Below are positions 39,515 through 64,000 of a stretch of 64,000 bases of DNA, in pieces (positions within the stretch are counted from its first letter, which is position 1; each line of letters starts with the position of its first letter). The position numbers and the translations under genes were made by a program. The notes below the pieces were generated by a model, which saw only the letters and a program-made list of their open reading frames with translations, was not told the origin of the DNA and did not search any database. The DNA comes from Bradyrhizobium sp. BRP22. Its GTDB lineage: Bacteria > Pseudomonadota > Alphaproteobacteria > Rhizobiales > Xanthobacteraceae. The stretch covers positions 186,001 through 250,000 of the forward strand of contig NZ_JADYVX010000007.1 in NCBI RefSeq assembly GCF_020194175.1. Reading direction: 5' to 3'.

Positions 39515-40012
39515 TCACGCCGCCTGGCGCTGCTGATCAACGTACTGCATCGTGACCTTCTCGACATTGGCCTCCACCCAGGCTGCCATGCGCTCCTCCT
39601 CTTTGAGGGAAGTTTCGAGCAGCGGCCGCGCTGCGTCCGCGCCCGCGGCCTGACAAAGAGCCAAGAGTGATTTGTAGGCGGCAATCTCGTAGTGCTCGAA
39701 CGCGTCATTGGCGAATGTGTTCTTCAGTATCTCGTCGCCCGCCATCGAATGCCCCATCGCCATCATATTGGCCATGAACGACTGGGCGGTATCCTTCAGA
39801 CTCGACGTACTTTCGCCGCAGGCGTCGAGGCACTCCTCCAGGCGCCGGAGCTGCTCGTTGGTCTCGCTGAGATGGCTAATCACCCTTGACTTCACCTCGG
39901 GGTATTCGTCGAGCCGTTCCGACTGCCGCTCCATCAATTCTCGTGCCTGAACCTCCATTGCATGTGCGTTTCGTAGCCCGATGACGAATATGTCGCGCGC
40001 CGTCTGTGCCAT
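39515..40012 (-). CDS. Ferritin-like DUF892 protein
   Basis: A 165-residue helical protein of the DUF892 (YciE/YciF-like) ferritin-like family: DIFVIGLRNAHAMEVQAREL, HLSETNEQLRRLEECL, DAFEHYEIAAYKSLL and KEEERMAAWVE carry the Glu/His positions that usually bind a di-metal centre. Family members rise under stress; biochemical role unclear. Divergent from the manganese catalase fusion, each with its own GGAAC-type promoter element. Confidence 0.85.
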   Translation of the reverse strand: MAQTARDIFVIGLRNAHAMEVQARELMERQSERLDEYPEVKSRVISHLSETNEQLRRLEECLDACGESTSSLKDTAQSFMANMMAMGHSMAGDEILKNTFANDAFEHYEIAAYKSLLALCQAAGADAARPLLETSLKEEERMAAWVEANVEKVTMQYVDQQRQAA

Positions 40013-40051
40013 TTGTCTCTCCTTCTTGTTCCTAGGAAACCGACGGGCAAA

Positions 40052-40076
40052 AACATTACCCGATGTCCAATGTTCC
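40052..40076 (-). promoter_or_regulatory. EcfG-like promoter of the DUF892 gene
   Basis: Read on the minus strand: GGAAC, 16 bases, TGTT. It lies about 40 bases before the DUF892 start at 40012. It resembles the alphaproteobacterial general-stress sigma factor consensus GGAAC-N16/17-CGTT, with T in place of C. Confidence 0.5.
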
Positions 40077-40168: not shown

Positions 40169-40193
40169 GGAACAAACCACAGCCCCCACGGTT
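40169..40193 (+). promoter_or_regulatory. EcfG-like promoter of the manganese catalase fusion
   Basis: GGAAC (40169-40173), 16 bases, GGTT (40190-40193), ending about 38 bases before the ATG at 40232. It forms a divergent pair with the element at 40052-40076. Confidence 0.55.
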
Positions 40194-40231: not shown

Positions 40232-41503
40232 ATGTACCACCATGTCAAGAAGCTGATGTTCACTGTCCGCGTCGATGAGCCGGACCCCCGGTTTGGCAAC
40301 ATGCTTCTTGAACAGTTCGGCGGCGCCAACGGCGAACTGGCCGCGGCGATGCAGTATTCGATACAGGGCTTAAATTGCGAGGATCCTGATCGTAAGGATC
40401 TGCTGATGGACATCGGCACCGAAGAACTGAGCCATCTCGAAGTTGTAGGTACCCTCGCCCGCATGCATCTCAAACCATCCAAATTTGATCGTCAGGCTGC
40501 CGAGGCGGATCCGCTGATTGCGATTGCGGGCGGCGGAGGCGTGAATTTGTTCAATTCACAAGGAAACGCATGGACCGCGGATTACCTGAAAATCACAGGC
40601 GAGCTAGATGTCGACCTGCGCAGCAACATTGCCGCAGAAGCGCGAGCCAAGATCGTCTATGAGCGGTTGATCAATTTCTGCGACGACGCTGGTACCAAGG
40701 ACGCCCTGCAATTCTTGATGACCCGCGAAATCACCCATATGAAGGCCTTCGCGCTGGCGCTCGAGAGCCTGGCCAAGCCAGCCCTCAGTATCGGCCGTAT
40801 CGCGCCCACCCCCGGCCTCGTCGACCAGTTCTTCAACGATTCCACCGGTAGGGGCGATCACGGCGAGATCGACACCCGCGGTCCCTGGAATGAAGGTGGC
40901 GATTGGGTCTTCACGGAATCGCCAGCCATTCAGGCCGGAGACCCGGGACCAGCGACAGCGATCGTCACGGAAAGCTCGCCCCCGGCAGACGAGGCTGGCC
41001 TTAGCGACCTCCTGATCGACGAACTCCGCGACATCCTGCATGCGGAGAAGCAGCTGACCAAGGCGCTGCCCAAGATGGCCGAAGCGGCACGGTTCGACCA
41101 GTTGCGCGAGCTGTTCGAACAGCATCTGGCCGAGACCGAGAACCAGATCGAACGTATCAACGAGTGTTTCGAGCTTCTCGGCAAGTCCGCCCGCGCGAAG
41201 CCTTGCAAGGGCATGATGGGTTTGGTCGAGGAAGGTCAGGAGATCATGGCCGAGGGCGAACAGAAGGAAGATGCAGCCGCCGATTTGGCCTTAATCGGCG
41301 CCGCACAGCGCGTCGAACACTATGAGATCGCAGGCTATACTACTGCGCGCAACCTCGCCCAACAGCTGCGCCACAGTGCAATCGTCAGCTTGTTGTCAAA
41401 GTCGCTGGCCGAGGAGGAAAATGCAGACCAACTACTCAACCAGGTCGCCCGCTCGCTGATGTCGGTTGCAAAAATGCCGGACGCGATTGAGCGGGCTGAA
41501 TAG
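40232..41503 (+). CDS. Manganese catalase fused to a DUF892 ferritin-like domain
   Basis: A 423-residue fusion. Residues 1-~250 form a manganese catalase: MYHHVKKLMFTVRVDEPDPR, GANGELAAAMQYSIQG, DIGTEELSHLEVVGTL, AEARAKIVYERLI and MTREITHMKAF supply the Glu/His ligands of the dimanganese site. After a ~20-residue linker, residues ~260-415 are a DUF892 ferritin-like domain (LSDLLIDELRDILHAEKQLT, QHLAETENQIERI, RVEHYEIAGYTTARN). It should destroy hydrogen peroxide; the second domain's role is unknown. The ATG at 40232 matches the catalase N-terminus. Confidence 0.88.
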   Translation: MYHHVKKLMFTVRVDEPDPRFGNMLLEQFGGANGELAAAMQYSIQGLNCEDPDRKDLLMDIGTEELSHLEVVGTLARMHLKPSKFDRQAAEADPLIAIAGGGGVNLFNSQGNAWTADYLKITGELDVDLRSNIAAEARAKIVYERLINFCDDAGTKDALQFLMTREITHMKAFALALESLAKPALSIGRIAPTPGLVDQFFNDSTGRGDHGEIDTRGPWNEGGDWVFTESPAIQAGDPGPATAIVTESSPPADEAGLSDLLIDELRDILHAEKQLTKALPKMAEAARFDQLRELFEQHLAETENQIERINECFELLGKSARAKPCKGMMGLVEEGQEIMAEGEQKEDAAADLALIGAAQRVEHYEIAGYTTARNLAQQLRHSAIVSLLSKSLAEEENADQLLNQVARSLMSVAKMPDAIERAE

Positions 41504-54240: not shown

Positions 54241-54975
54241 ATGGCGCGTATTCTGATCGGGACATCGGGCTGGCACTACGAGTCCTGGCGCGGGCCCTTC
54301 TTCCCGAAAGGCCTGCCGCTCAAGAACCAGCTTCGCTACTATGCCGGCCAGTTTCCGACCACGGAATTGAATGGCGTCTTCTATCGCACGCCGACGCCGG
54401 ACGCGGTGAAGGGCTGGCGCGAGCAGACCGACGAGGATTTTGTCTTCGCCTGGAAGGCGTCCAAGTTCATCACGCATTGGAAGCGCCTGTCGGAGAACTC
54501 GGTGAACAGCCTCGAGCTGCTCGAAGACCGGCTATCGCTGCTCGGCAACAAGGCGGGCCCGATCCTGTTTCAACTGCCGCCGCAGTTTGAGATCAACCAG
54601 GATCGCCTCGCCTCCTTCCTCAAACTGCTGTCGAGGAAGCGCCGTTACAGTTTCGAGTTTCGTCACCCGAGCTGGTACGCGCCGAAGATCATGCGCCTGC
54701 TGTCTGACGCAAATATTTCGCTGTGCATTTCGGACCACCACGACGCGCCGGCGCCGTGGCGGCGCACCGCCGATTTCGTCTATGTCCGGGGCCACGGCCC
54801 TGGCGGTCGCTACAAGGGCCATTATCGCGGCCCGACATTGGCCGAGTGGGCCAAGCGCATCAACTCCTGGAAGAGGCAGGGCTGCGACGTCTATGTCTAT
54901 TTCGACAACGACCAGAAGAGTGCCGCCCCCGCCGACGCGGCAAAGCTGCGACAATTGATTGGAGGGAAGCAATAG
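54241..54975 (+). CDS. DUF72 (YecE-like) protein
   Basis: A 244-residue TIM-barrel protein of DUF72: ILIGTSGWHYESWRGPFFP, LNGVFYRTPTPDAVKGW, FVFAWKASKFITHWKRL, ILFQLPPQFEINQDRL, YSFEFRHPSWY, FVYVRGHGPGGRYKGHY and VYVYFDND. Function is unknown for the family. It follows the PoxB-like gene closely and is probably co-transcribed. The ATG at 54241 matches the family start. Confidence 0.9.
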   Translation: MARILIGTSGWHYESWRGPFFPKGLPLKNQLRYYAGQFPTTELNGVFYRTPTPDAVKGWREQTDEDFVFAWKASKFITHWKRLSENSVNSLELLEDRLSLLGNKAGPILFQLPPQFEINQDRLASFLKLLSRKRRYSFEFRHPSWYAPKIMRLLSDANISLCISDHHDAPAPWRRTADFVYVRGHGPGGRYKGHYRGPTLAEWAKRINSWKRQGCDVYVYFDNDQKSAAPADAAKLRQLIGGKQ

Positions 54976-54999
54976 GAACCTCGCGAACCGCATGATGTT
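54975..54999 (+). promoter_or_regulatory. EcfG-like promoter of the second DUF892 gene
   Basis: GGAAC (54975-54979), 16 bases, TGTT (54996-54999). Its first base is the last base of the DUF72 stop codon. It lies about 50 bases before the TTG start at 55049. Confidence 0.5.
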
Positions 55000-55048: not shown

Positions 55049-55558
55049 TTGGGATTGCTTTCGAAGGATATCAAAACGATGGACGACCTGCTCCTGCACG
55101 GCCTGCAGGATATTTATTATGCCGAGCAACAGATCACCAAGGCGCTGCCGAAGATGATCGAGCTCGCTACCAACCGCGATCTGACGCTGGGCCTCAAGAA
55201 CCATCTTGAAGAGACCAACAAACAGATCGAGCGTCTTGATCAGGTATTCAAGAAGCTCGACAAGCAGCCATCGGGCACCGATTGTCCGGCGATCGATGGT
55301 CTGATCGAGGAAGCCAATGAGATTGCCGGTGAGATCGAGGATAAGTCCGTACTCGATGCCGCGATCGTGGCGAGCGCGCAGGCGGTCGAGCACTACGAGA
55401 TTTCCCGCTATGGCACGCTGATCGCGTGGGCGGAAGAGCTCGGCCATGACGACATCGTGCGCTTCCTCAACACCAATCTGAACGAGGAAAAGGCCGCAAA
55501 TACCAAGCTCAACACCATTGCGCTACGCAAGGGCGTCAATCGCAAGGCGGCCAGTTGA
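55049..55558 (+). CDS. Ferritin-like DUF892 protein (YciE/YciF type)
   Basis: A 169-residue helical protein: MDDLLLHGLQDIYYAEQQIT, LKNHLEETNKQIERLDQVF, DAAIVASAQAVEHYEISRYG and NLNEEKAANTKLNTIA keep the metal-ligand Glu/His pattern. It resembles the C-terminal domain of the catalase fusion at 40232-41503. The start is a TTG at 55049 with an excellent GAGGAGG (55037-55043) before it. A terminator follows. Confidence 0.88.
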   Translation: MGLLSKDIKTMDDLLLHGLQDIYYAEQQITKALPKMIELATNRDLTLGLKNHLEETNKQIERLDQVFKKLDKQPSGTDCPAIDGLIEEANEIAGEIEDKSVLDAAIVASAQAVEHYEISRYGTLIAWAEELGHDDIVRFLNTNLNEEKAANTKLNTIALRKGVNRKAAS

Positions 55559-58536: not shown

Positions 58537-60042
58537 TCACGCGGAGCGTGAACTGAGTGCCGGCTCCGGTCCTGGCGCATTCACGTCCCGATAGGGAATC
58601 GCTTCCGTGCGCGGCTTTCCCTGCAGCGGCACCGTGAGCCGGCAGACCAGGCCTTCCGGACGCCAGTCGAAATCGGCCTTGCCGCCGAGTTGGGTCTCGA
58701 TGCTGGCGATCACGCTTCTCGTGCCGAATCCCTTTGACGTCGGCTTGGTCACGCGTGGACCACCCGTTTCGACCCACGCCAAGATCAGCTTGTCGCTTTG
58801 CACTTCCCAGGTGATGCCGAGCCGGCCCGGCAGCGCGGACAGGCTGCCATATTTCGCGGAGTTGGTGACGAGCTCGTGCAGCGCCAGCGCCAGGGTCTGC
58901 GCCGTGGCCGGCTCGAGCTGGACTTCCGCACCCTCATACTGGATTTGTCCGGCTTCCGAATAAGGCGCAACCTCTTCGGCGACCAGTCGCCGGATTTCAG
59001 CGCCTTGCCAGCTCGACAGCGACAGCACGGTGTGAACCCGCGCCAGCGCCGTGATGCGGCCTTCAACCGCCTGCACATAGGCGTTGACGTTCTGCGCACG
59101 CGTCAACCGCACGATCGACTGCGCCAGCGCCAATGCGTTCTTGGCGCGATGATCGACTTCACGCGTGAGCAGGCTCTGCCGTTCTTCGGCGCGCTTGCGG
59201 TCGGTGATGTCGACGGTGACGCCACTGACGCGCACCACCCGGCCGTTTCTGTCGGTGGTCGCTGCCGCCGTGCCGACGCACCAGCGCACCTCCCCATCGG
59301 GGCGGATGATGCGGAATTCAGCCTCGTATGATTTCACGCCCTTCGCGAATTCGGTCCAAGCCTCGCGCAAGCCGTCGAAATCCTCGGGATGAAACAGCGC
59401 CTGAATGTTGGCGGAGTTCAGCTCGAAGCTCTTGGCATCGACGCCGAAGATCTTGTACTGGCCGTCGTCCCACATCCAGTCGCCGTTGACCCAATCCCAG
59501 TCCCAGGAGCCCATCTTGCCGGCGGCAATCGCCATGCTGCGGCGCTGTTCGCTTTCGACCAGCCGTGCGGTCGACTGCTCGAGCTCAGCGGTGCGCGCAC
59601 GGACGCGGTCCTCAAGCTCGGAATTGAGCCGCTCCAACTGCCGGGTCTTGCGGTAGAGCTCGGCGAATACGCGGATCTTGGCGCGCAGCACTTCCGGCAC
59701 CACCGGCACCGGAACGTAGTCGACCGCGCCCATCTCATAGCCGCGCAGCCGATCGAAATCGCTGACCTGGATCGCCGAGATGAAAATCATCGCGGTCTTC
59801 TGGAAGCGCGGATGCTCGCGGATCATGGCCGCGAGCTCGAAACCGTCGAGCTCGGGCATGCAGACGTCGACCAGGATGACGGCAACCTCGTTCTTGAGCA
59901 GAAACTCGAGCGCTTCCCGCCCCGACGCGGCCACCACCAGATTCTCGCCGAGCTCCTTCAGGATCACTTCATAAGCCAGCAGCTTCGCCGGCTGATCGTC
60001 GACCAGAAGGATGTTTACCTTTTCGTGGTCCATCATCTTCAT
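58537..60042 (-). CDS. HWE-family histidine kinase with N-terminal receiver and PAS
   Basis: 501 residues: a receiver domain (LLVDDQPAKLLAYEV, acceptor Asp in VILVDVCMPELDG), a short coiled coil, a PAS domain (MGSWDWDWVNGDWMW to VTVDITDRKRAEE) and an HWE kinase. The H-box is LLTREVDHRAKNALALAQS, the N-box ALHELVTNSAKYGSLS and the WxE motif ITWEV. Such kinases often feed the EcfG general stress pathway. It lies six bases after the hybrid kinase and is probably co-transcribed with it. Confidence 0.9.
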   Translation of the reverse strand: MKMMDHEKVNILLVDDQPAKLLAYEVILKELGENLVVAASGREALEFLLKNEVAVILVDVCMPELDGFELAAMIREHPRFQKTAMIFISAIQVSDFDRLRGYEMGAVDYVPVPVVPEVLRAKIRVFAELYRKTRQLERLNSELEDRVRARTAELEQSTARLVESEQRRSMAIAAGKMGSWDWDWVNGDWMWDDGQYKIFGVDAKSFELNSANIQALFHPEDFDGLREAWTEFAKGVKSYEAEFRIIRPDGEVRWCVGTAAATTDRNGRVVRVSGVTVDITDRKRAEERQSLLTREVDHRAKNALALAQSIVRLTRAQNVNAYVQAVEGRITALARVHTVLSLSSWQGAEIRRLVAEEVAPYSEAGQIQYEGAEVQLEPATAQTLALALHELVTNSAKYGSLSALPGRLGITWEVQSDKLILAWVETGGPRVTKPTSKGFGTRSVIASIETQLGGKADFDWRPEGLVCRLTVPLQGKPRTEAIPYRDVNAPGPEPALSSRSA

Positions 60043-60048
60043 GCCGCT

Positions 60049-63000
60049 TCAGCGATGTAGCCACATGCGGATGGCGAGCAGCAATTGCTCGGTATTCACC
60101 GGCTTGGCTAGATAGTCCGACGCGCCCGCTTCCAGGCATTTTTCACGGTCGCCCTTCATCGCCTTCGCGGTCAACGCGATGATGGGAAGACGGGCAAGCG
60201 TCGCATTCTGCCTGATCACGCCGATGGTCTGATAGCCGTCCATCTGCGGCATCATGATGTCCATCAGGACGATGGCAATCTTGGGATTGGACTCGACCAG
60301 CGCGATCGCCTCGTGGCCGGTCGTCGCCGTCAATACCTTCATACCGCGACGTTCGAGCACGCTGGAAAGCGCGAAGATGTTTCGCGCATCGTCGTCGACG
60401 AGAAGCGCCGTCTTGCCAATCAGATCCTCATCTGAACTGTTAAGTTTCTCGAGCATCCTCTGTTTTTCAATCGGCAATTCCGTGATGACACGGTGCAAGA
60501 ACAGTGACGTTTCGTCCAGCAGACGCTCCGGCGATTCGACGCCTTTTACGACAATGCTGCGCGCCATCGTATGAAGCTCGGCATCCTCCTCGGCCGAGAG
60601 TTCCCGTCCGGTGAACACCACGATCGGAACATTGGCCAGGCTTTCGTCCTTGCGGATTTCGTCCAACACCTCAAAGCCGCTCATGTCCGGCAGCCGCAGA
60701 TCCAGCACGACGCAGTCGCAAGGATTGCTCCGCAAGGTGGAAAGAGCCCCCGCTCCCGTGCCCGCGGTGACGATCTCGACGTCCTTGTGATCCAGCAGTT
60801 CCTTGATGCTGAGCTGTTCGGCGGGATTATCTTCCACGATCAGAAGCCGCTTGCGCCGGGGCCTTGCATATTCCTTGATCTGGGCAAGCGCCGCGCTGAC
60901 GCCCTCGGTCGTGGTGGGCTTGTTGACGAAGGAGAAGGCGCCGCGCGCCAGCGCATGCTGCCGGTCCTCGTCGAGCGTGATCACCTGCACCGGAATGTGC
61001 CGCGTCAGCGGATTGTGCTTGAGCTGGCTCAGCACGGTCCAGCCGAGCATGTCGGGCAGGAACACGTCGAGCGAAACCGCGGTCGGCTGGAACTGCTTGG
61101 CCAGGTCCAATGCCTCGGCCCCGTGGTTCGCGACCAGGACCTTGAAGCCTTTGTCTCGCGCGAGATCGACCAGGACCCGCGCATAGTGCGGGTCGTCTTC
61201 GACGATCAGGAGGATCATGTCTCCGGGCTCGAGATCGAGCCGATCGTCGAGCACCTCGGCAGCAACGCGCTCCTGCGTTGCGGGCGCCTGCAGCGCCGGA
61301 GCACCCCCCTGCGACAAGGGCAGCGCCGGCGGCACGCGAAGTGCACCGCTTGGGCCGGAATATTTCAGCGGCAGATAAAGCGTAAAGGTGCTGCCCCTGC
61401 CGGGCGCGCTCCGCAGATGGATCTCGCCGCCGAGCAGGCTCGCAAGTTCGCGGCTGATGGCAAGGCCCAGGCCCGTGCCGCCATATTTGCGGCTGGTGCC
61501 TGCGTCCGCCTGCTGGAACGCTTCAAAGATCAGCTTCTGCTTGTCCAGGGGGATGCCGATGCCGGTATCGCTCACCTCGAAGGCGACGACCGCCGGCGCG
61601 GTGTTGAGGATCGGATGTTCGGCGCTCCAGCCGCCGACTGCGGCCGAGACGGTCAGCTTGACGCCACCCTCGGCGGTGAATTTGAAGGCGTTCGACAACA
61701 GGTTCTTCAGCACCTGCTGCAGGCGCTTGGAGTCGGTGACCATGCTGCGGGAAAGCGTCTCGTCGACCTCGATGCTGAACAACAGATGACGGTTTTCCGC
61801 CTCGTGCCGGAACGGCCGGCCCACGGTTTCGAGCAGGCTCGATGTCAGGATTTCCTCGGCATCCACGGTGACGGTACCGGACTCGATCTTCGAGAGGTCG
61901 AGGATGTCGCTGATCAGGTTGAGCAGGTCGGTGCCCGCGCCGTGGATGGTACGGGCGAATTCAACCTGTTTCGGCGACAGATTGCCATCCGGATTTTCCG
62001 ACAGTTGATGGCCAAGGATCAGGATACTGTTCAAGGGCGTGCGCAACTCGTGCGACATGTTGGCCAGGAATTCGGACTTGTATTTCGAGGTCAGTGCAAG
62101 CTCGCTCGCCTTCTCTTCCAGAGCGCGGCGCGCCTGCTCGATTTCCTGGTTCTTGCGCTCGACCTCGACGTTGCGTTCGGCGAGCTGCTGTGCCTTCAGT
62201 TCAAGCTGCTCGTTGGTCTGCTGCAACTCCCGCTGCTGCGTCTGAAGCTCGCCGGCGAGCTGCTGCGACTGCTGCAGCAGACCTTCCGTCTGCATCGTCG
62301 CTTCAATACTGTTGAGCAGGATGCCGACGCTGTCGGTAAGCTGTTCGACGAATGTGATCTGCGAGGCGGTGAACGACGCGAGCGAGGACAACTCGATCAC
62401 GGCCTTGACCTGGTTCTCGAACAGCACGGGGAACACGACCACGTTCTTCGGCAGCACCCGCATCAGCGCCGAGTTGACCGGCACCACGTCACCCGGAATA
62501 TCCGACAGCAGCCGCTGGCGCTTGTCCAGTGCACACTGGCCAATCAGCCCCTCGCCCATTCGCACATATGGCGGATGCGGATTGGCGCCGTCATCGGCAT
62601 ACGCGGACAACAGACGCAGCCGCGGGTTCTCGGCGTTCTCGACCTGGTAGATCACGCCCATATGGGCGTTGATCACAGGCGCCAATTCCGCCAGCAGCAG
62701 CCGGCCCACGGTCGACAGGTCACGCTGGCCCTGCAGCATGTTGGTGAACCTGGCGAGATTGGTCTTCAGCCAGTCCTGCTCGGTGTTCCGCTCCGTCGTC
62801 AGACGGAGGTTGCCGATCATGGTGTTGATGTTGTCCTTGAGCTCGGCCACCTCGCCGCGGACGTCGACCTGGATGGTGCGGGTCAGGTCGCCTTTGGTCA
62901 CCGCGGTCGCGACTTCCGCGATGGCGCGGACCTGCGAGGTCAGATTGGCGGCCAGCAGGTTGACGTTGCCGGTCAGATCCTTCCAGGTGCCGGCAGCGCC

Positions 63001-64000
63001 CGGCACGTTGGCCTGGCCGCCGAGCCGGCCCTCGACGCCGACTTCGCGCGCCACGGTCGTGACCTGATCGGCGAACGTCGCCAGGGTCTCGGTCATGTTG
63101 TTGATGGTGTCGGCGAGAGCGGCCACCTCCCCTTTCGACTTCACGGTCAGATTCTGCTTCAGATCGCCATTGGCCACTGCGGTCACGACCTTGACGATGC
63201 CGCGCACCTGCTCGGTCAGATTGGCGGCCATCACGTTCACGGTGTCGGTCAGGTCCTTCCACGTGCCGGCGACGCCGCGCACCTCGGCCTGGCCGCCGAG
63301 CTTGCCTTCGGTGCCGACTTCGCGCGCCACGCGCGTCACTTCGCCCGCAAACGCGTTGAGCTGGTCCACCATGGTGTTGATGGTGTTCTTCAGCTCGAGG
63401 ATTTCGCCCTTCACGTCGACGGTGATCTTGCGCGACAGGTCGCCGCGCGCCACCGCCGTCGTGACTTCGGCGATGTTGCGCACCTGCGTGGTAAGGTTCG
63501 CCGCCAGCAGGTTGACGTTGTCGGTGAGATCCTTCCAGGTGCCGGCCACACCCGGCACCACGGCCTGGCCGCCCAGCCTGCCCTCGGTGCCGACCTCGCG
63601 CGCCACGCGCGTCACTTCCGCCGCGAAGGAGCGCAGCTGCTCCACCATCGTGTTCAGCGTTTCCTTGAGCAGAAGGATCTCGCCGCGGACGTCGACGGTG
63701 ATCTTCTTCGACAGGTCACCGCCGGCGATCGCGGTCGCGACTTCGGCGATGTTGCGCACCTGCGCCGTGAGGTTCGACGCCATGAAGTTGACGTTGTCGG
63801 TGAGGTCCTTCCAGGTGCCCGCGACCTCCGGCACTTCGGCCTGGCCGCCGAGCTTGCCTTCGGTGCCGACCTCGCGCGCCACGCGCGTCACCTCGGAGGC
63901 GAAGGCGTTGAGCTGGTCCACCATGGTATTGATGGTGTTCTTCAGTTCCAGGATTTCGCCCTTCACGTCGACGGTGATCTTGCGGGACAGGTCGCCTCGC
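60049..64000 (-). CDS. Giant hybrid histidine kinase with HAMP array (N-terminus beyond window)
   Basis: At least 1316 residues; the frame is open to the right edge. Order: four 92-residue HAMP-type repeats ([36 protein letters not shown]), a GAF domain ([24 protein letters not shown]), a coiled coil, HisKA ([16 protein letters not shown]), HATPase ([34 protein letters not shown]) and three receivers with acceptors in [18 protein letters not shown] and LMDIMMPQM. It is a soluble or membrane signal integrator of the Nik1/BarA-like HAMP type. Confidence 0.9.
62790..64000 (-). repeat. Near-tandem 276-base repeats coding for HAMP modules
   Basis: The segment coding for [11 protein letters not shown] recurs at about 62976, 63252, 63528 and 63804, exactly 276 bases (92 codons) apart. 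The repeats are close enough at DNA level to recombine. They continue beyond the right edge. Confidence 0.85.

Follow-up and report, generated by a model that had tools for sequence, protein, structure and literature searches.

The window analysed here, 64,000 nucleotides of Bradyrhizobium sp. BRP22 (contig NZ_JADYVX010000007.1, positions 186,001 to 250,000), contains a reading frame in which a manganese catalase runs into a DUF892 (YciF-type) domain, raising the question of whether the joined protein is genuine and what its two halves might do together. No function has been agreed on for DUF892/YciF proteins, which are stress proteins; the fusion ties them physically to the destruction of peroxide and provides a single protein in which that link can be tested. 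A preliminary description of the DNA had proposed one frame with a full manganese catalase ligand set and a complete DUF892 domain, and this was borne out by Pfam, by alignment with the Lactobacillus plantarum enzyme (1jku) and by conservation.

The fusion gene

The gene and its parts are as follows.

40232..41503, + strand: manganese catalase-YciF/DUF892 fusion coding sequence, 423 amino acids (open frame, Pfam, relatives).
40232..40984, + strand: KatB-type manganese catalase domain, residues 1-251 by Pfam, with ligands E35, E65, H68, E136 and H169 and second-sphere E166 (PF05067, alignment with 6j42/4r42 and 1jku, conservation).
40928..40999, + strand: linker, approximately residues 233-256, overlapping the end of the Pfam catalase match and variable (alignment, model).
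41000..41461, + strand: YciF-like DUF892 domain, residues 257-410, with candidate metal residues E272, H298, E301, E334, E362, H363, E365, E394 and E395 (PF05974, conservation, YciF fold match).

The frame runs for 423 codons without a stop. A longer open reading frame of 496 amino acids, starting from TTG at 40013, was set aside as it looks like an N-terminal over-extension, the relatives beginning at or near MYHHVKK. The concern raised in the preliminary description, that a sequencing error had created the fusion, does not hold. A second fused gene was found on contig C118 of the same genome (8.36 Mb), with 92% identity over residues 1-423, and the fusion was present in 31 of the 31 manganese catalase-bearing genomes among 60 sampled from the genus and in all 80 of the named loci kept; a sequencing error or frameshift is therefore ruled out. 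The combination of catalase and DUF892 is thus real and conserved in Bradyrhizobium-type soil bacteria. The genome has no manganese catalase match beyond these two fused genes. It also encodes a heme catalase as well as a peroxidase of the KatG type, so that the fusion is an additional enzyme and not the only catalase.

Approximately 11 kb from the second copy, a DUF892 gene lies in two overlapping frames (C118:213618-214047; L008 and L009), reflecting either decay or an assembly error. It was also observed that the fused protein is publicly annotated in plasmid records (H1-H3) as 'DUF892 family protein', which hides the catalase domain.

The catalase domain

The Mn_catalase family (PF05067) matches residues 1-251 with 204.8 bits against a cut-off of 27 (E 1.8e-60). 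Residues E35, E65, H68, E136 and H169 align with E35, E66, H69, E148 and H181 of 1jku, which we take to be the dimanganese ligands of that enzyme, and E166 aligns with the Glu that presumably has the second-sphere role there. The five ligand positions are conserved in 98-100% of 90 distinct fused rows and in 100% of 23 stand-alone rows. The nearest solved catalase is KatB of Anabaena (4r42, 6j42), with 6j42 matching residues 1-231 at E 1.4e-50, while 1jku is farther away (E 7.8e-28); KatB differs in being a chain of 236 residues with no DUF892 domain. The cut-off of the ManCatBAC equivalog NF052557 (NCBIfam) was missed (154.8 vs 350 bits), the domain being nearest to KatB. Manganese catalases are hexameric.

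The DUF892 domain and the linker

The DUF892 family (PF05974) covers residues 257-410 with 181.9 bits against a cut-off of 23.7 (E 1.2e-53), spanning profile positions 2-154 of 159. This part is YciF-like, matching 4eru (YciF) at E 8.4e-31 and 3ogh (YciE) at only 1.2e-5. The nine candidate metal residues are kept in 98-100% of the 90 distinct fused rows and in 96-100% of 30 free rows chosen by their similarity to the fused domain. A fused domain devoid of conserved acidic and histidine residues is ruled out by this conservation, and the possible objection raised in the preliminary description, that the metal ligands are lacking, does not hold for these candidate positions. Its suggestion that the domain might bind metal gains support from the same positions and from the match to the YciF fold, and metal binding is likely on these grounds.

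Modelling of the 423-residue chain, also proposed earlier, succeeded for one half of the protein. The first whole-chain model, from an alignment of 23 close relatives, had a mean pLDDT of 39.4; the second, from 50 rows, reached 63.3 with a pTM of 0.44. In the second model the DUF892 domain was confident (mean pLDDT 81-98 per ten-residue block over residues 261-410) and superposed on 2gs4 (YciF) with a target-normalised TM of 0.94 and an rmsd of 1.1 over 157 columns, so that the YciF four-helix fold is predicted to be present. Solved YciF structures (2gs4, 4eru, 7tmv) and YcfI of Rhodopseudomonas (2gyq) share this fold (target-normalised TM 0.88-0.94, identity 39-44%), differing from it in being free-standing. 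The catalase part was weak (rmsd approximately 11 to KatB) in this model, in whose alignment six stand-alone catalase rows have 10-14 residues set in DUF892 columns. The linker was also of low confidence, with pLDDT below 50 at residues 210-251, and varies in length, the spacing between GPWNE and LRD being 45-54 residues in the 72 rows containing both strings.

Distribution and origin of the fusion

The preliminary description had recommended a search for proteins carrying both domains, and such proteins proved abundant within the genus. Sixty genomes were searched with the Pfam catalase model alone and then with the whole protein, a sample free of bias towards full-length matches. The catalase model matched 31 genomes and left 29 without a match, indicating that the fusion is dispensable in the genus. 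The whole-protein search found the same 31 genomes with 38 matches, 36 of which are stop-free from residue 1 to 421-423, with at least one per genome; the remaining two were not counted as intact, one being a fused copy with a frameshift (G039:C71) and the other a fragment of the C-terminal part (G013:C91). In a collection of named genomes, the best 80 of 316 relatives were all fused in a single frame, a count that favours full-length fusions since the loci were ranked by match, some genomes contributing two. These loci comprise 76 from Bradyrhizobium, one from Nitrobacter, two from Rhodopseudomonas and one from a 'Rhizobiales bacterium' bin.

Beyond the genus the fusion was found sparsely. 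In a draw of 398 genomes across the phylum, full-length fusions turned up, besides the BRP22 genome, in six congeners and in one genome from elsewhere in the order (G311); among the matches listed, no other catalase match in these 398 genomes extends into the DUF892 part. Of 297 genomes drawn from the order, that of BRP22 and those of five congeners carried the fusion, as did one genome from each of five other family codes (G697, G311, G575, G614 and G611, the last with a match starting at residue 49). Stand-alone KatB-type genes were present in G458 and G626 of this draw, with more distant stand-alone matches in others such as G569 and G617. On plasmids, 4 of the 30 records among the matches listed (555 with any match) carried the fusion in one piece, two from Bradyrhizobium barranii and two from Rhizobium.

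An unrooted tree was built from 44 DUF892 rows, 14 of them representatives of the fusion. The fused rows all grouped together, separated from the other 30 by a branch supported at 100/99, and this clade fits a single fusion event. The fused clade does not lie beside the catalase-linked or operon-linked DUF892 rows of this tree. A DUF892-like neighbour in L033 had a branch of 9.15 in this tree and was not taken as a catalase-linked gene.

Unfused partners and neighbouring genes

Two further DUF892 genes occur in the window.

39515..40012, - strand: YciE-like DUF892 protein, divergent neighbour of the fusion (Pfam 147.5 bits; nearest solved structure 3ogh (YciE), E 2.9e-29).
55049..55558, + strand: free YciF/YcfI-like DUF892 protein (Pfam 192 bits; 2gyq of Rhodopseudomonas, E 3.9e-91).

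Both had been pointed out in the preliminary description as free-standing proteins, and their scores confirm them as real. As the gene at 39515-40012 is YciE-like and not YciF-like, the window holds by homology the three partners of a yciF-yciE-katN set together, katN and yciF being fused.

YciE-like frames (E below 1e-60) were detected in the flanks of 6 of the 80 named loci (L092, L109, L141, L142, L144 and L147), the flanks being incomplete in some loci. The frame in L109 is adjacent and divergent to the fusion, in the same layout as in the window. In L141 and L142 it shares the strand of the fusion and stops only a few bases short of it, an arrangement that looks like an operon. The neighbourhood of YciE and the fusion is thus recurrent, not fixed.

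Catalase and DUF892 also occur as separate neighbours. The plasmid match was in two pieces in 26 of the 30 records among the matches listed. The record of Paracoccus marcusii encodes DUF892 and then the manganese catalase across a gap of 55 bp; that of Pantoea has the same order with a gap of 69 bp, and there a small general-stress gene and another ferritin-like gene lie ahead of the pair. The phylum draw includes 21 genomes whose stand-alone catalase match is strong, and in at least 6 of them (G337, G358, G428, G112, G152 and G360) DUF892 is matched no more than 3 kb away; this is a raw proximity count and, with four candidates scored per genome, a lower bound. Such neighbouring genes are reminiscent of the enterobacterial yciGFE-katN operon.

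Contigs filed as viral show a similar arrangement: a DUF892 gene is followed by a manganese catalase gene approximately 0.6 kb on in two of them (L163 with L186, L164 with L185), and two more carry DUF892 and manganese catalase (L161/L187 and L162/L188). On these contigs the unfused form would be carried by putative mobile elements.

Promoter motif and proposed stress regulation

Upstream of each of the three DUF892-bearing genes of the window, a sigma-EcfG-type motif was recognized by motif scan.

40169..40193, + strand: GGAAC-N17-GTT motif of the fusion gene, with GGAAC 63 bp before the ATG.
40052..40076, - strand: motif with 17-base spacing, of the divergent YciE-like gene.
54975..54999, + strand: motif with 17-base spacing, of the DUF892 gene at 55049.

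Eleven instances of the pattern GGAAC-N15-18-GTT are present in the window against 4.1 expected (sd 2.05), a count reached in none of 100 shuffles, and 3 of the 11 lie directly upstream of these genes. Among 92 distinct 120-nt upstream sequences of fused genes, which are related and not independent, an exact motif of the GGAAC-N17-GTT type was present at -80 to -45 in 77, and a motif with at most one mismatch in 89; random stretches of the same loci gave 0.7% and 3.5%, respectively. The three upstreams without the motif belong to L082, L141 and L142, the last two having the YciE-like frame directly upstream.

EcfG is the sigma factor for general stress in alphaproteobacteria. Its motif GGAAC-N17-20-GTT is described for Sphingomonas melonis in the accessible part of PMC6599016, and the available portion of PMC8092242 reports a functional EcfG-dependent general stress response in B. 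diazoefficiens, conferring tolerance to an oxidative stress among others. Considering the recurrence of the motif, the fusion gene would be under EcfG control.

Two kinase genes lie elsewhere in the window. The first (58537-60042, - strand) encodes a histidine kinase of the HWE type that also carries receiver and PAS domains. The adjoining one (60049-63966, - strand) encodes a hybrid kinase of 1305 amino acids, in which HAMP is matched four times, GAF once and the receiver domain three times. Kinases of the HWE type can provide input to the general stress response.

Possible functions of the fused protein

The explanation judged best, with a somewhat better than even chance of being correct, is that the fusion is a bifunctional general-stress protein, combining H2O2 breakdown and iron sequestration within one assembly. 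From its ligand set, the KatB-type dimanganese domain at the N-terminus would turn H2O2 into water and oxygen. The YciF-type domain at the C-terminus may bind iron, as suggested by its fold, its conserved acidic and histidine residues and reports on three other DUF892 proteins, and would probably oxidise and sequester it. Coupling of the two could then remove both Fenton reactants, the peroxide and the iron which form hydroxyl radical, in one place. The EcfG general stress response would induce the fusion gene together with the divergent yciE-like gene, making the fusion a putative one-polypeptide counterpart of the yciGFE-katN stress operon. The reports on iron concern free DUF892 proteins, none of them fused: over-expression of the three in E. 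coli lowered the sensed free iron and raised the magnetic retention of the cells (PMC5126674, accessible part). Mineral storage is doubtful since YciF is listed as a dimer instead of a cage (PMC3843698). A more specific version, put forward tentatively, has the YciF domain as a peroxide-using ferroxidase that oxidises and binds Fe(II) at low H2O2 while the dimanganese domain takes high H2O2; one polypeptide would clear both Fenton reactants, and the products of yciFE-katN elsewhere would achieve this as a complex.

It is conceivable, though rather unlikely, that the DUF892 part is instead a structural module, a YciF-type dimer tying catalase oligomers together or stabilising the enzyme without metal. 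The hexameric state of manganese catalases, the low confidence and variable length of the linker and the fact that stand-alone KatB-type enzymes work without a DUF892 domain would all agree with a scaffold, as would the listing of both YciF and YciE as dimers (PMC3843698). Conservation of the potential metal-binding acidic and histidine positions in 98-100% of the 90 fused rows, however, is not obviously needed by a pure scaffold. Delivery or storage of manganese for the dimanganese site by the DUF892 part, one of two options in the preliminary description, seems improbable: the two parts do co-occur, both fused and as neighbouring genes, but it is iron on which DUF892 proteins are reported to act (PMC5126674, accessible part), 15 of the 21 genomes with a strong stand-alone catalase have no DUF892 match within 3 kb among the matches listed, and nothing in this analysis pointed to manganese. 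The other option offered there, joint detoxification, is the better one in light of the iron effect and the neighbouring stress genes, and no support was found for metal supply.

A merger of two co-regulated neighbours, retained by drift with no functional coupling, would be in keeping with the existence of the gene-neighbour form, with a single origin and with the variable spacing from GPWNE to LRD. Such a fusion without coupling is nevertheless hard to credit, given that the joined form was found in every manganese catalase-bearing genome of the genus sample and also in one genome from each of five additional family codes in the order draw. In addition, the order of DUF892 followed by catalase in the two unfused records inspected is the reverse of that in the fusion, and simple read-through of that order is therefore no explanation for it.

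Comparison with known systems

The preliminary description knew of no characterised example of this fusion. The architecture is in fact already in print: as given in the accessible part of PMC6727835, Hindupur et al. (2006), in the paper on the YciF structure, tied the YciF architecture to a manganese catalase domain in bll3758 of Bradyrhizobium japonicum. The protein bll3758 thus has the same architecture, a manganese catalase domain with a YciF domain, by its description in that part of PMC6727835, and its orthology with the window fusion is presumed. Loci of B. diazoefficiens and B. japonicum were likewise fused in this survey (L085 and L114, 95% and 90% identical to the window fusion). A literature search on manganese catalase, DUF892/YciF, Bradyrhizobium and bll3758, covering titles and opening abstracts with subscription journals mostly outside its scope, found no biochemical work on the fused protein and found bll3758 named only in the citing paper, PMC6727835. 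The fusion opens no new kind of system; its architecture was noticed before.

A close counterpart is the enterobacterial yciGFE-katN operon, which is described as stress-regulated and as bringing together the same partners, YciF, YciE and a manganese catalase (PMC6262077 and PMC4458695, accessible parts). The partners there are encoded by separate genes, with DUF892 before the catalase in the Pantoea record, and RpoS is the regulator reported for enterobacteria in the same accessible text, in contrast to the EcfG motif found at the fusion. The same set of partners would answer to a different stress regulator in each case: to RpoS among enterobacteria, according to the literature, and to EcfG for the fusion, as its promoter motif suggests.
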